This document shows, piece after piece, positions 53,344-58,474 of a stretch of 64,000 nt of DNA. The translations under genes were made by a program, and so were the position numbers. The stretch comes from a bacterium (GTDB taxonomy: Bacteria; Armatimonadota; Fimbriimonadia; Fimbriimonadales; Fimbriimonadaceae). The DNA lies in the NCBI GenBank assembly GCA_027485645.1, contig JAIXQR010000003.1, positions 434,001 to 498,000 of the forward strand, in the 5' to 3' direction. Each line of letters starts with the position of its first letter. Position 1 is the first letter of the stretch. Under the pieces are notes generated by a model. It worked only from the letters and a program-made list of their open reading frames with translations. It searched no databases and was not told the origin of the DNA.

Positions 53344-54024
53344 GTGGATCTAGGTCGATGTCCGAAGTGCGGCGATGCTTGGGCGCGAGGTGCAGAGAAA
53401 TGTCGAAAGTGCGGTTACACCGCCATCGGTGCTGGCCTGGCGAAATTGCCCAAGAAGAAGCGCATTCCGGCACCAAAGTATGAGGAGCCGGGGGCTTGGA
53501 CGCCGTTTCTGGCATTTACCTTCGGTTTTCTTGCTCTCGGATACACGGCCTATGCCCAGCCGTGGAAAGACGGCTTCACGAAGCTGAAGGCTCAATTAGG
53601 CATTGCTTCGGAACCTGGCATTGTCGGCGAGTGGGAAGTCAATCGGATCATCTATCCGCCCACGCCCGAGACCACGATGGGAATTCGCGAAGAGACCATT
53701 AAGGGTCTGTTCACCTTTGCCAAAAACGAAACGTTCAAGGCGAACATTCTCGTACGCCCCTCCCCGGTGAAGGCCGAAGGGAAGTACAAGTTGCTCGCTG
53801 GCAAGCTCGCGGTTCGGTCGGTCTCGGCTTCGCCGGCCAACAGTTTCCCCGCCGATGTTGACTGCACGGTGAATTTTGTGACGGAAGATCAGGTCGTTGC
53901 GACGTTCCCGAACGCGACCGCGCTGTTCATGAACCGAACTCGCGGGATCGAGAATGCGGCCAAGGTCATGGGCTACAAGATTTCGGGCGAAGCCATGAAG
54001 CGCGTTCCGGAGGATGAACCATGA
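53344..54024 (+). CDS. Zinc-ribbon membrane protein of unknown function
   Basis: 226 aa with a GTG start. A C-x2-C-x11-C-x2-C zinc ribbon (CPKCGDAWARGAEKCRKCG, about 6-24) is followed by one hydrophobic segment (about 50-66, FLAFTFGFLALGYTAYA) and a beta-rich domain of about 150 residues (GEWEVNRIIYPP; FTFAKNETFKANILVRP). The C-terminal domain resembles small lipocalin-like extracellular domains, but I do not name it. The stop overlaps the start of the pseudopilin gene (ATGA), so the two are coupled. Confidence 0.72.
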   Translation: MDLGRCPKCGDAWARGAEKCRKCGYTAIGAGLAKLPKKKRIPAPKYEEPGAWTPFLAFTFGFLALGYTAYAQPWKDGFTKLKAQLGIASEPGIVGEWEVNRIIYPPTPETTMGIREETIKGLFTFAKNETFKANILVRPSPVKAEGKYKLLAGKLAVRSVSASPANSFPADVDCTVNFVTEDQVVATFPNATALFMNRTRGIENAAKVMGYKISGEAMKRVPEDEP

Positions 54025-55169: not shown

Positions 55170-57968
55170 ATGGATTTGCGGAGCACTCTCCAACTACCTG
55201 ACGCTGAATCTACGATTCCGATGAAGGCCAACTTGCCTACCCTGGAGCCGTCAATTCTGGCGATTTGGGAGGAGCGCGGTCTGTATGCCCAGATTCTTGA
55301 AAGTCGGGTCGGTGCGCCCAGCTACGTGCTTCACGATGGCCCGCCGTACACGAACAGCCCGATCCACTTGGGAACCGCGCTAAACAAGATCCTCAAGGAT
55401 TTCACGGTCAAAAGCCGCACGATGATGGGCTTTCGCGCACCGTACGTGCCCGGATTCGACAGTCACGGCCTTCCGATCGAACTTGCGGTAACCAAGAAAC
55501 TGGCCGCAAAGAAGGAAACCGTCACCGGTTCGGCATTGCGTACCGCTTGCCGAGAACACGCATACGAGTACATTAAGATCCAGTCGGAGCAGTTTGAGCG
55601 ACTCGGCGTTCTTGGCCTTTGGAAGCACCCTTACGCGACGCTGGATTACACCTACGAAGCGGAACTCGTGCGGACTTTCAAGAAGCTGGTTGAAGGCGGT
55701 CATATCTACAAAGGACTTCGCCCGACACTGTGGAGCCCGACTTCACAAACGGCCCTCGCCGATACGGAGATCGTCTACCACGATCACGTTTCGACTTCGA
55801 TCTACGTGCGGTTCGCTCTTCGACACGACCCGAACCAGATCTTTAGCGAATTCCCGAACCTGTACACGATCATCTGGACGACGACGCCTTGGACGATCCC
55901 GTCCAACCTTGCGGTGGCTTTTCACCCGCAACTCGATTACGCGATCGTCAAGGTGGGCGAGGATCATTATCTGATCGTTTCGGCCTTGGTTGAGCGGATC
56001 GCCGAGAAGCTCGGATGGACGGATTTTGAAGTGGTTGCCACGCGCGAAGGCATCAACTTTGACCACATGACCTTTAGTCACCCGATCTTTGATCGAAATT
56101 CGCTCGCGGTCATGGCCGAGTACGTGACGACGGAAGACGGTACGGGCGTGGTCCACACGGCGCCGTCGCACGGTCGTGACGACTTTTACACCGGCCAGAA
56201 GTACGGCCTTCCGGTCCCTAACACGGTCGATGGCAAAGGCGTTCTGACGTCGGAAGCCGGTGAATTCGCCGGTACCTACTACAAAGACTGCGACACCGTG
56301 GTGGTGGATCGACTAAAAGAAGTCGGCGCGCTGCTTAAGAGCGAGCCGTACCACCACACCTATCCATATGCGGAGCGCGATGGCAAGCCGGTGATCTTCC
56401 GCGCCACCGAGCAGTGGTTCCTCAGCATCGACCCGATTCGGGAGCAGATGCTGGAGGAAATCCAAGGCGTTCAGTGGGTGCCGCCGGTGGGACAGAACCG
56501 AATTGAAGCGATGGTCCGAAACCGCCCGGACTGGTGCATTTCGCGCCAGCGACCATGGGGAGTCGGTATTCCGGTGTTCTACGGCAAGGAATCGCGAGTG
56601 CCGGTACTTGATCCAGAAGCGATCGAAGCGGTTGCCCGCCTCGTAGAAGCGCGGGGATCGGACGCTTGGTTCGAAGTCGATGCGAAGGACATCTTGCCTG
56701 AAGGCTACGTTCATCCAGAGACCGGCGAAACCGAATTTGAGAAGGAAACCGACACGCTCGACGTGTGGTTCGACTCTGGCTCGTCGTCCTTGGTGACTCT
56801 GGATTCTCAGGTGACCCCAGAATGGAAGACACAAGGCCTGCATTGGCCAGCAGACGTCTACTTTGAAGGTTCGGACCAGCACCGCGGTTGGTTCAACACC
56901 TCGCTAATCCTTGGCACCGCGATCAAGGGTGCGGCACCGTACCGCACGGTTGTCACCCACGGCTTCGTCACGGACAGTGAGGGACGAAAGATGTCGAAGA
57001 GCCTCGGCAACGTGATCGAGCCGATGGGAGCCGCGAACCAGTACGGCGCGGACATCCTTCGCTACTGGGTGGCGAGCGTGGACTATCAATCCGACGTTCC
57101 TTGCTCCGATGCCCTGCTCAAGCAGATTGGAGACAGCTATCGAAACGTTCGAAACACCCTTCGATTCTTGTTGAGCAGCGCGGCGGGATATGACGCCACC
57201 AGCGAAGGGCCGATGTCCGAAGGTTCTTGGGCAGATTTGGACGAATGGGTCCGCGAGCAGGCGGACCTCTTGGCGGCCGATTGCGTTCAGAAGTACGACG
57301 CATTTGACTTCGGCGGCGTGATCAATGCGATCCATAACTTCTGCCGCGAAGAGCTTTCGAAGTTCTATCTGGACGCGATCAAGGACCGGATGTACTGCGA
57401 TGGCGTGAACTGGCCGAGCCGACGCTCTGGGCAGGCGACCTGCTTGTACGTTCTCAACCAACTTTTGACTTTGGTCGCGCCGATCTTGGCGTTTACGGCG
57501 GAAGAAACATGGATGAAGATGCGAGACCTTGGTTTGCACGCATCCGAGAGTTCGATTCACACCGAGCGATTCCGCTCGCCGAGTCCCGAACGCATGCAAG
57601 AGATCGAAGGTTCGCAACTCCAGGCACGGTTCGAAAGCCTACGTGGACTCCGAGACACGGTCAATGCCGCGTTTGAGCAGTACAAGGGTACGGATGGCAT
57701 TAAGAACAGCCAAGATGCGATCGTTCGGCTGACCTTGCCTGCGGACACGTTTGGAGTCATGAGCTCGTTCTCGATCAGCGACTTGGCAAACTACTTCCGC
57801 GTCAGCTGGGTTGAGCTCACGCTCGGCGAGCCGGCGATTTCGTTCGCACCGTCGACCTATCCCGAGTGCGCGCGCAGCCGACTGCGCCGACCCGACGTGA
57901 CGAGCATCTCCATCGAGCGGGAGGAGTTTCTGCTTTCCGATCGGGACCGGCAGGTGCTGGGCGTTTGA
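55170..57968 (+). CDS. ileS: Isoleucyl-tRNA synthetase
   Basis: 932 aa. It charges tRNA(Ile). The HIGH-like motif HLGT is at 66-69 (NSPIHLGTALNKIL), the editing domain segment TTPWTIPSNLAVAF is seen and KMSKS is at 607-611 (GRKMSKSLGN). The C-terminal domain, where IleRS normally has a zinc finger with two CxxC pairs, reads YPECARSRLRRPDV and then FLLSDRDRQVL, so only C900 of the four expected cysteines is retained. The ileS stop is overlapped by the lspA start. Confidence 0.96.
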   Translation: MDLRSTLQLPDAESTIPMKANLPTLEPSILAIWEERGLYAQILESRVGAPSYVLHDGPPYTNSPIHLGTALNKILKDFTVKSRTMMGFRAPYVPGFDSHGLPIELAVTKKLAAKKETVTGSALRTACREHAYEYIKIQSEQFERLGVLGLWKHPYATLDYTYEAELVRTFKKLVEGGHIYKGLRPTLWSPTSQTALADTEIVYHDHVSTSIYVRFALRHDPNQIFSEFPNLYTIIWTTTPWTIPSNLAVAFHPQLDYAIVKVGEDHYLIVSALVERIAEKLGWTDFEVVATREGINFDHMTFSHPIFDRNSLAVMAEYVTTEDGTGVVHTAPSHGRDDFYTGQKYGLPVPNTVDGKGVLTSEAGEFAGTYYKDCDTVVVDRLKEVGALLKSEPYHHTYPYAERDGKPVIFRATEQWFLSIDPIREQMLEEIQGVQWVPPVGQNRIEAMVRNRPDWCISRQRPWGVGIPVFYGKESRVPVLDPEAIEAVARLVEARGSDAWFEVDAKDILPEGYVHPETGETEFEKETDTLDVWFDSGSSSLVTLDSQVTPEWKTQGLHWPADVYFEGSDQHRGWFNTSLILGTAIKGAAPYRTVVTHGFVTDSEGRKMSKSLGNVIEPMGAANQYGADILRYWVASVDYQSDVPCSDALLKQIGDSYRNVRNTLRFLLSSAAGYDATSEGPMSEGSWADLDEWVREQADLLAADCVQKYDAFDFGGVINAIHNFCREELSKFYLDAIKDRMYCDGVNWPSRRSGQATCLYVLNQLLTLVAPILAFTAEETWMKMRDLGLHASESSIHTERFRSPSPERMQEIEGSQLQARFESLRGLRDTVNAAFEQYKGTDGIKNSQDAIVRLTLPADTFGVMSSFSISDLANYFRVSWVELTLGEPAISFAPSTYPECARSRLRRPDVTSISIEREEFLLSDRDRQVLGV

Positions 57969-58474
57969 AGGGGCCGGTGCTGTTTTGGTCCGTCTTTGTG
58001 ACCGGCATTTTGGCGGATCAGGGCGTGAAAGCGTGGGTGCGGGACGCGATTCCGCAACAGGGCAGCCTTGGTGGTAAGCCTTGGCCGGGGATTTTTGAGA
58101 TCACCCTGACCTACAACGAAGGGATCGCCTTCGGGATGTTTCAGGGTGCCGGCGTCTTCATGTCGCCAGTAGCGCTGATCATTGCCGGAATGGCCGCCGT
58201 ACACAGCCATCGCCACGCGAGCGAGCCGAAGCTGCTGCACTGGACGATGGGGCTGTTTGCCGCCGGTGCAATTGGGAATCTGATTGATCGTTTGGCTTTC
58301 GGAAAGGTGACCGACATGTTCTGGTTTCGGCTCATCAACTTTCCGGTCTTTAACGTTGCTGACTCGTTGATTACGGTCGGCACGTTCCTGCTTATCTTGA
58401 CCGCGTTTTTGAATCCTTCAGACGAAAAGAAACCCGTCCTGGCAGAGCCAGAACGGGATCAGGATTCGAACTAA
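57965..58474 (+). CDS. lspA: Lipoprotein signal peptidase
   Basis: 169 aa from TTG 57965 (GTG 57977 is an alternative). It cuts the diacylated lipoprotein signal in the inner membrane. Four hydrophobic segments and the catalytic Asp pair are visible: GAIGNLIDRLAF (D in NLIDR) and FNVADSLITVG (D in ADS). A reading from 57866 extends into ileS and is rejected. The TTGA overlap with the ileS stop suggests translational coupling; ileS-lspA pairs are common. Confidence 0.92.
   Translation: MKGPVLFWSVFVTGILADQGVKAWVRDAIPQQGSLGGKPWPGIFEITLTYNEGIAFGMFQGAGVFMSPVALIIAGMAAVHSHRHASEPKLLHWTMGLFAAGAIGNLIDRLAFGKVTDMFWFRLINFPVFNVADSLITVGTFLLILTAFLNPSDEKKPVLAEPERDQDSN

Follow-up and report, generated by a model that had tools for sequence, protein, structure and literature searches.

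The gene ileS occupies positions 55170 to 57968 of the window, that is, the whole 64,000-nt stretch of Armatimonadota DNA that was analyzed, and encodes a type-1 isoleucyl-tRNA synthetase (IleRS) of 932 amino acids. Coordinates given here are positions in this window and residue numbers are those of the 932-aa protein; ileS and the features described within it lie on the + strand. The open reading frame (ORF) starts with ATG and ends with TGA. Its product scored 872 bits against the NCBIfam model ileS (TIGR00392), above the cut-off of 621.4, but 313.8 bits against MupA and 316.6 bits against MupB, both below cut-offs of 1900. An identity as type-2 IleRS, MupA or MupB was rejected, as these scores fall far under the cut-offs. 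The closest solved relatives are the bacterial IleRS1 of P. megaterium, S. aureus and H. pylori. The same genome yielded no second IleRS: its six other matches cover only part of the protein at 21-34% identity, which is what other class I synthetases should give. A second IleRS carrying a working finger was therefore rejected, the genome having one full-length copy. The C-terminal end of the protein reads ...YPECARSRLRRPDVTSISIEREEFLLSDRDRQVLGV. Its last part, residues 880-932 (57807..57965), corresponds to the zinc finger of type-1 enzymes and is remodelled; the predicted fold of residues 845-932, which include it, aligns to residues 822-915 of the S. aureus IleRS (structure 1qu2). In this finger ordinary side chains seem, on the predicted model, to have taken over from a structural metal site.

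At the columns of the four cysteines of type-1 IleRS, the window enzyme carries Cys900 (TGC, 57867..57869), Ser903 (AGC, 57876..57878), Ser923 (TCC, 57936..57938) and Asp926 (GAC, 57945..57947). A profile alignment of 82 relatives with solved IleRS placed the cysteines of the P. megaterium, S. aureus and H. pylori enzymes at these four residues, the S. aureus sequence reading KCERCW...LCPRC there, and a separate alignment of the C-termini gave the same columns. A first-pass annotation of this DNA had claimed that three of the four finger cysteines were replaced, and the alignments bear this out. Direct reading of the ORF showed that Cys900 is the only cysteine downstream of residue 846, and the idea that the cysteines had moved elsewhere in the C-terminus was rejected. 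A frameshift or sequencing error was rejected as well, because a 95% identical relative (L008) has the same finger residues, and positions 2 and 4 are likewise Ser and Asp in 70 of the 83 readable enzymes of the window's family and its sister family.

To assess the distribution of this change, 138 IleRS C-termini were aligned after 6 non-IleRS loci and 5 duplicate loci had been left out; all family comparisons were made within one phylum, Armatimonadota. The window's family is called f1; its sister family f5, together with f2 and f3, belongs to the same order. A match was obtained in 102 genomes of this order, of which 95 were read; besides three with an unreadable finger (G009, G263 and G277), the others are G020, G252, G261 and G274, for which the C-terminus was not retrieved. 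Among the aligned rows, the finger was unreadable in G009, G263, G277 and G076 and half-read in G096 and G138. Writing the residues at the four positions in order, the 75 readable enzymes of f1 (out of 77) comprise 42 CSSD, 24 CSTD, one CSRD, four CCSD, one CSCC and three CCCC, while the eight of f5, all readable, comprise three CCCC, one CCCD, one CSCC, one CSSD and two CSTD. All readable enzymes of f2 (11 of 12) and f3 (1 of 1) are CCCC. In other families of the phylum, 36 of the 37 fully readable enzymes (out of 40) are CCCC and one is CSSQ, and among 20 further enzymes, whose states were assigned by eye, 19 are CCCC and one is CSSQ. Both sets together thus give a four-cysteine finger in 55 of 57 readable enzymes, counting as such three rows of family f26 (two in the first set, one in the second). 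In these f26 rows (L091, L116 and L226) the second pair is spaced C-x-x-x-C and not C-x-x-C.

Among the 83 readable enzymes of f1 and f5, 70 follow the pattern C-x-R-S ... L-[STR]-x-R-D (hereafter zinc-less), 6 have four cysteines and 7 are intermediates. The choice of residues is narrow: position 1 is always Cys (83/83), position 2 only Ser (72) or Cys (11), position 3 Ser (47), Thr (26), Cys (9) or a single Arg (in G028), and position 4 only Asp (75) or Cys (8). No enzyme combines Ser or Thr at position 3 with Cys at position 4. With CCCC in 6 of the 83 enzymes, in all 12 of f2 and f3 and in 55 of the 57 others, and with no displaced cysteines, derivation of the finger from a four-cysteine ancestor is upheld. 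The question raised in the first-pass annotation, whether the finger is lost throughout the clade, has a divided answer: three of the four cysteines are replaced in most members of f1 and f5, but six members keep all four. No IleRS1 match at E 1e-100 was obtained in four genomes of the same order, each more than 90% complete (G039, G043, G059 and G250), perhaps because the gene is split or the enzyme is of type 2.

The residues around the former ligands are changed too. Phe892 (57843..57845), eight residues before the first ligand, is Phe in 69 of 70 zinc-less rows, whereas Val or Ala stands there in 32 of 36 four-cysteine rows of other families. Five residues before that ligand, Ser or Thr is found in 69 of 70 zinc-less rows, and three residues before it an aromatic residue or His in 67 of 70, where the usual residues of four-cysteine enzymes in other families are Ala and Gly, respectively. 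Four residues after it, at the position of the usual Trp (35 of 36 four-cysteine rows of other families), all 70 zinc-less rows have Arg or Lys; in the window enzyme this is Arg904, the first residue of the stretch Arg904-Leu-Arg-Arg907-Pro-Asp909-Val910 (57879..57899). The six four-cysteine members of f1 and f5 already share the Phe (6/6), the Ser (6/6) and mostly the Arg after the second ligand (5/6), so the remodelling likely preceded the replacement of the cysteines. The order in which the cysteines were replaced does not seem fixed, since CSCC, CCSD and CCCD all exist.

The full-length enzyme was modelled by AlphaFold with a mean pLDDT of 94.6 (block means of 90-98 in the tail), and residues 1-932 of the model superimposed on the S. 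aureus IleRS of the tRNA complex entry 1qu2 (residues 1-915) with Z 44.8 and a root-mean-square deviation (rmsd) of 4.2 over 898 aligned residues. Residues 845-932 were also folded with 63 zinc-less relatives only, to exclude any influence of four-cysteine sequences. This tail model had a mean pLDDT of 96.0 and matched 1qu2 (822-915) and 8c9e (823-916) over 83 of 88 residues with an rmsd of 2.5 and Z 8.0, a moderate value for such a small domain; the H. pylori IleRS gave Z 5.1 and the best non-IleRS chain Z 4.0. The zinc-less finger is thus predicted to overlay the four-cysteine fingers of the S. aureus and P. megaterium enzymes.

None of 64 zinc-less tails matched the finger family PF06827 (zf-FPG_IleRS) at E up to 1, and a search of the window's genome with PF06827 at E up to 10 did not list the ileS locus. 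As a control, 10 tails with two to four finger cysteines were searched: 6 matched at E up to 1 and 3 passed the cut-off, all 3 from outside f1 and f5. Of the four CCCC tails from f1 and f5 in this control, none passed the cut-off and one had no match, so the remodelled surroundings, and not the lost cysteines alone, contribute to the missing matches. The NEIL1 zincless finger (PF09292) was not among the 11 families listed for the 64 tails at E up to 1.

One could see in these data a finger that is needed no longer and is decaying, and the first-pass annotation had indeed called it eroded. Three of the four cysteines and the usual Trp are lost, PF06827 finds no match, and the mean majority fraction is 0.61 in the tail (880-932) against 0.70 for the whole protein. 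On the other hand, eight residues (F892, C900, R902, S903, R907, L922, R925 and D926) are invariant in all 62 full-length zinc-less rows, where the segment 846-889 has no invariant column. As the tail is less conserved overall and yet holds these eight columns, constraint falls on chosen positions. The serine codons also argue against decay. Both AGY and TCN codons are used at position 2, with at least 12 changes of class on the tree among 69 serine rows, and the two classes for Ser903 interleave among relatives; at position 3, at least 13 such changes are needed among 46 serine rows. A one-base path between AGY and TCN serine codons passes through Cys or Thr. At position 2, Thr never occurs among the 83 enzymes while Cys is present. 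Because the codon class switches repeatedly while the serine stays, Ser903 is held by selection, and passage via Cys is a natural route. Together with the occurrence of the same replacements outside one clade, described below, these observations make decay the least likely of the explanations weighed here, one to which we give hardly any credence, and the description of the finger as eroded does not hold.

To follow the replacements over time, a quick IQ-TREE tree was built from 92 rows with the tail columns removed; 3 short rows were left out of the trees. The families f1 and f5 each formed one clade with support 100, the f1 node having a support of only 0.345 in a FastTree tree, and several inner forks were weak in both trees. 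A single clade for all 72 Asp-bearing rows was rejected (approximately unbiased (AU) test, p = 8.5e-39), and a single clade for the 68 Asp-bearing rows of f1 was rejected less strongly (p = 0.0125); these p-values are only a guide because the tested groups were defined by the trait itself. The tree requires no fewer than 10 changes at position 2; for the second pair the minimum is 6. Two-state rate models, run on the fixed quick tree with its partly weak inner forks, fitted 5.7 log units better when regain was allowed than under a loss-only scheme, for position 2 as well as for position 4. Replacement thus apparently arose more than once, as regain or as parallel loss, with nearly the same residues each time. 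The tree tests do not agree with the first-pass picture of a loss in one lineage.

A comparable set was found in f17, a family of the same phylum in which 12 genomes were searched, 9 had a match and 7 fingers were readable, their states being read by eye. Five of these (G099, G072, G134, G127 and G160) read C-x-R-S-W-F-x-R-E-D-V-G ... [LI]-S-x-x-Q, and two (G148 and G195) have four cysteines. In this zinc-less set the first Cys is kept, two positions are Ser, and the fourth is Gln, which offers a side-chain carbonyl. The f17 finger keeps the Trp, so it did not undergo the same remodelling as f1 and f5, and its C, S, S, Q set looks from the sequences like a parallel, second origin in a distant family. 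Of the unreadable matches, G181 lacks the end of the protein and the ileS of G165 (L238 / L241) is spread over several reading frames, perhaps through an assembly fault or because the gene has decayed.

The first-pass annotation had further suggested that the lineage compensated for the loss of the zinc site. The tRNA-Ile(GAU) genes were compared in 49 genomes, 30 being among the best matches to the E. coli gene and 19 chosen in addition. Five of these genomes have no finger row and G012 was read in part; picking genomes mainly by their match to the E. coli tRNA means that unusual tRNAs are under-sampled. Four tRNA-Ile(GAU) sequences were each common to genomes of different finger state. One was shared by five f5 genomes with CCCC, CCCD, CSCC, CSSD and CSTD fingers. 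The second was present in four genomes, two of them CCCC and two CSTD. Seven CSSD genomes had the third, as did one CCCC genome, one CCSD genome and a genome that has no finger row; the fourth occurred in one CCSD, one CSSD and two CSTD genomes. The finger can thus change while the tRNA stays the same, and compensation in tRNA-Ile(GAU) was not supported. Two observations weigh against dismissing it. In the window's own tRNA-Ile(GAU) the base immediately preceding the anticodon stem is A in place of the usual G, and G014 (CSSD) is the only other genome with this tRNA; in G017 (CSTD) the anticodon stem itself differs. The suggestion that something compensates therefore survives in spirit; tRNA-Ile(GAU) is probably not the place, and since identical tRNA-Ile(GAU) genes occur across finger states, compensation probably lies inside the finger itself.

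The shared tRNA genes also bear on the possibility that the tail, its fold unchanged, now serves another purpose, for instance in regulation or in contact with a protein, with tRNA recognition moved elsewhere in the enzyme. The replacement of the usual Trp by Arg and the joint change of the flanking F892, S895 and aromatic 897 would fit such a role. However, the same Phe and Ser are found in all six four-cysteine members of f1 and f5, and genomes of different finger state can have the same tRNA-Ile(GAU), which makes a new role quite improbable in our view.

From the substitutions, their strict conservation and repeated appearance, the predicted fold and the tRNA-Ile(GAU) genes shared among relatives, we infer with moderate confidence that the finger is a metal-free, hydrogen-bonded version of the same domain that keeps its role towards the tRNA. 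The absence of zinc, the hydrogen-bond geometry and the retained function are the inferred steps of this proposal. The four side chains would occupy the site of the former ZnCys4 centre. Most likely, Asp926 would replace zinc as the hub, accepting hydrogen bonds from the hydroxyls of Ser903 and Ser923 and from the thiol of Cys900, while arginines 902, 904, 907, 925 and 927 nearby would balance its charge. The ribbon could then keep its shape without metal and still support recognition of tRNA-Ile. A hub of this kind would account for the hydroxyl residues Ser and Thr at position 3, and for the one Arg there (G028), which could form a salt bridge to the Asp. It would also account for position 4 being only Asp or Cys in 83 enzymes, for Gln serving in f17, and for the first Cys needing no change.

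Several points weigh against this proposal. Most of the Arg residues that would balance Asp926 are also present in four-cysteine relatives of f1 and f5, and the tail is, as said, less conserved on average than the whole protein. The superposition of the tail is moderate for its size and the models carry no metal. AlphaFold often draws the folds of metal sites without the metal, so that a confident model is not proof of zinc-free stability. The contacts of the proposed hydrogen-bond network were deduced from topology. For type-1 IleRS, the kind common in bacteria and mitochondria, a paper citing Glasfeld 1996 reports the C-terminal zinc motif to be essential for aminoacylation (PMC4861432). Finally, Cys and Asp are both able to bind metal, and a weak site is possible.

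This last point leads to the rival view that the site has kept a metal, be it weakly bound zinc or some harder ion, via Cys, Ser or Thr, and Asp. Cys900 is never lost, all four positions keep polar side chains, and in the CCCD and CSCC intermediates three cysteines might suffice to retain zinc. Against this, 70 of the 83 enzymes have a single finger cysteine, Arg is found once at position 3 (G028), and Gln takes position 4 in the parallel family; the hydroxyls of Ser and Thr are, moreover, poor zinc ligands. We consider residual metal binding unlikely and retain the metal-free, hydrogen-bonded finger as the preferred explanation.

Zinc scarcity could instead have led to a general removal of zinc from the proteome. 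Three other proteins of the same genome were compared in this respect, which is not a survey. Ribosomal protein S14 is of the long kind with few cysteines, in line with zinc saving, zinc-independent ribosomal proteins being described as a known zinc-saving device in the section consulted of one paper (PMC5912738). In contrast, the protein read as Fpg still has all four finger cysteines and alone passes the PF06827 cut-off in this genome, and the protein read as adenylate kinase keeps its four-cysteine lid. Such sites are therefore still built elsewhere in the genome, and a proteome-wide removal of zinc seems very unlikely. Two genes upstream of ileS, the protein encoded at 53344-54024 carries at its start an intact zinc-ribbon-like CPKC ... 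CRKC pair, a hint that cysteine metal sites are kept elsewhere.

The nearest known counterpart is the zincless finger of NEIL1, plant and fungal Fpg and mimivirus Nei, which passages of two papers report to fill the same role without cysteines; one NEIL1-related paper notes a high variability at the former ligand sites of zincless fingers (PMC3188539, PMC9266487). Like the window IleRS, these proteins carry an Fpg/IleRS-type finger (PF06827) from which cysteines were lost. They are, however, DNA glycosylases, whereas the IleRS finger belongs to a synthetase, has its sites fixed as C, S, S/T, D, and coexists in zinc-less form with four-cysteine and intermediate members in one family. The IleRS case is therefore unusual among zincless fingers in being conserved, repeated and graded. 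Compared with the type-1 fingers of S. aureus, P. megaterium and H. pylori, that of the window enzyme has the same place, the same predicted fold and an alignable pattern, but one of the four cysteines and Arg for Trp.

Other synthetases also have zinc modules with zinc-free forms: according to the parts consulted, these include the knuckles of MetRS, families A-D (PMC8165550), and the putative zinc-binding domain of GluRS (PMC4381286). These are other enzymes and other domains, which cover the active site or position the acceptor arm, unlike the IleRS finger. Type-2 IleRS is likewise described, in the portions consulted, as being without the Cys4 cluster (PMC4861432, PMC10485003) and as having a C-terminal subdomain of different size and fold (PMC10485003), but the window enzyme is of type 1 by score and predicted fold. 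For ribosomal protein S4, whose zinc and zinc-free states are similarly scattered among relatives, the excerpt at hand explains the two forms by horizontal gene transfer (PMC3087516). Unlike in S4, the IleRS forms all belong to one gene family, and both family-level clades (f1 and f5) are kept. No description of a zinc-less type-1 IleRS finger was found in the open-licence papers searched.

Structural zinc sites are usually treated as all-or-nothing. Relatives with identical tRNA-Ile(GAU) that carry the full site, intermediates or the replaced site form a natural series on what a structural zinc contributes, and could show by which steps it can be given up. The finding bears on the claim that the zinc motif of IleRS is essential, and the short conserved motif is usable for annotating zinc-free IleRS in genomes. 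In an ordinary housekeeping enzyme, a structural metal site appears to have been replaced in an unusual way that is conserved and has evolved repeatedly. More generally, and only tentatively, a ZnCys4 centre might be interchangeable in both directions with a metal-free Cys-Ser-Ser/Thr-Asp set (Cys-Ser-Ser-Gln in the second family) after permissive remodelling, the RNA partner being able to stay the same; we regard this wider statement as possible, a little short of probable.

Downstream of ileS lies a putative lspA (57965..58474, + strand), named from the reading of its ORF. It appears to begin at an in-frame TTG (57965) that overlaps the ileS stop codon (TTGA), which suggests translational coupling; the same frame holds a GTG at 57977. 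The overlapping start codon was considered as a constraint on the tail of ileS. The Asp and Ser codons of the tail vary, so the protein is a likelier target of selection than the overlapping start.

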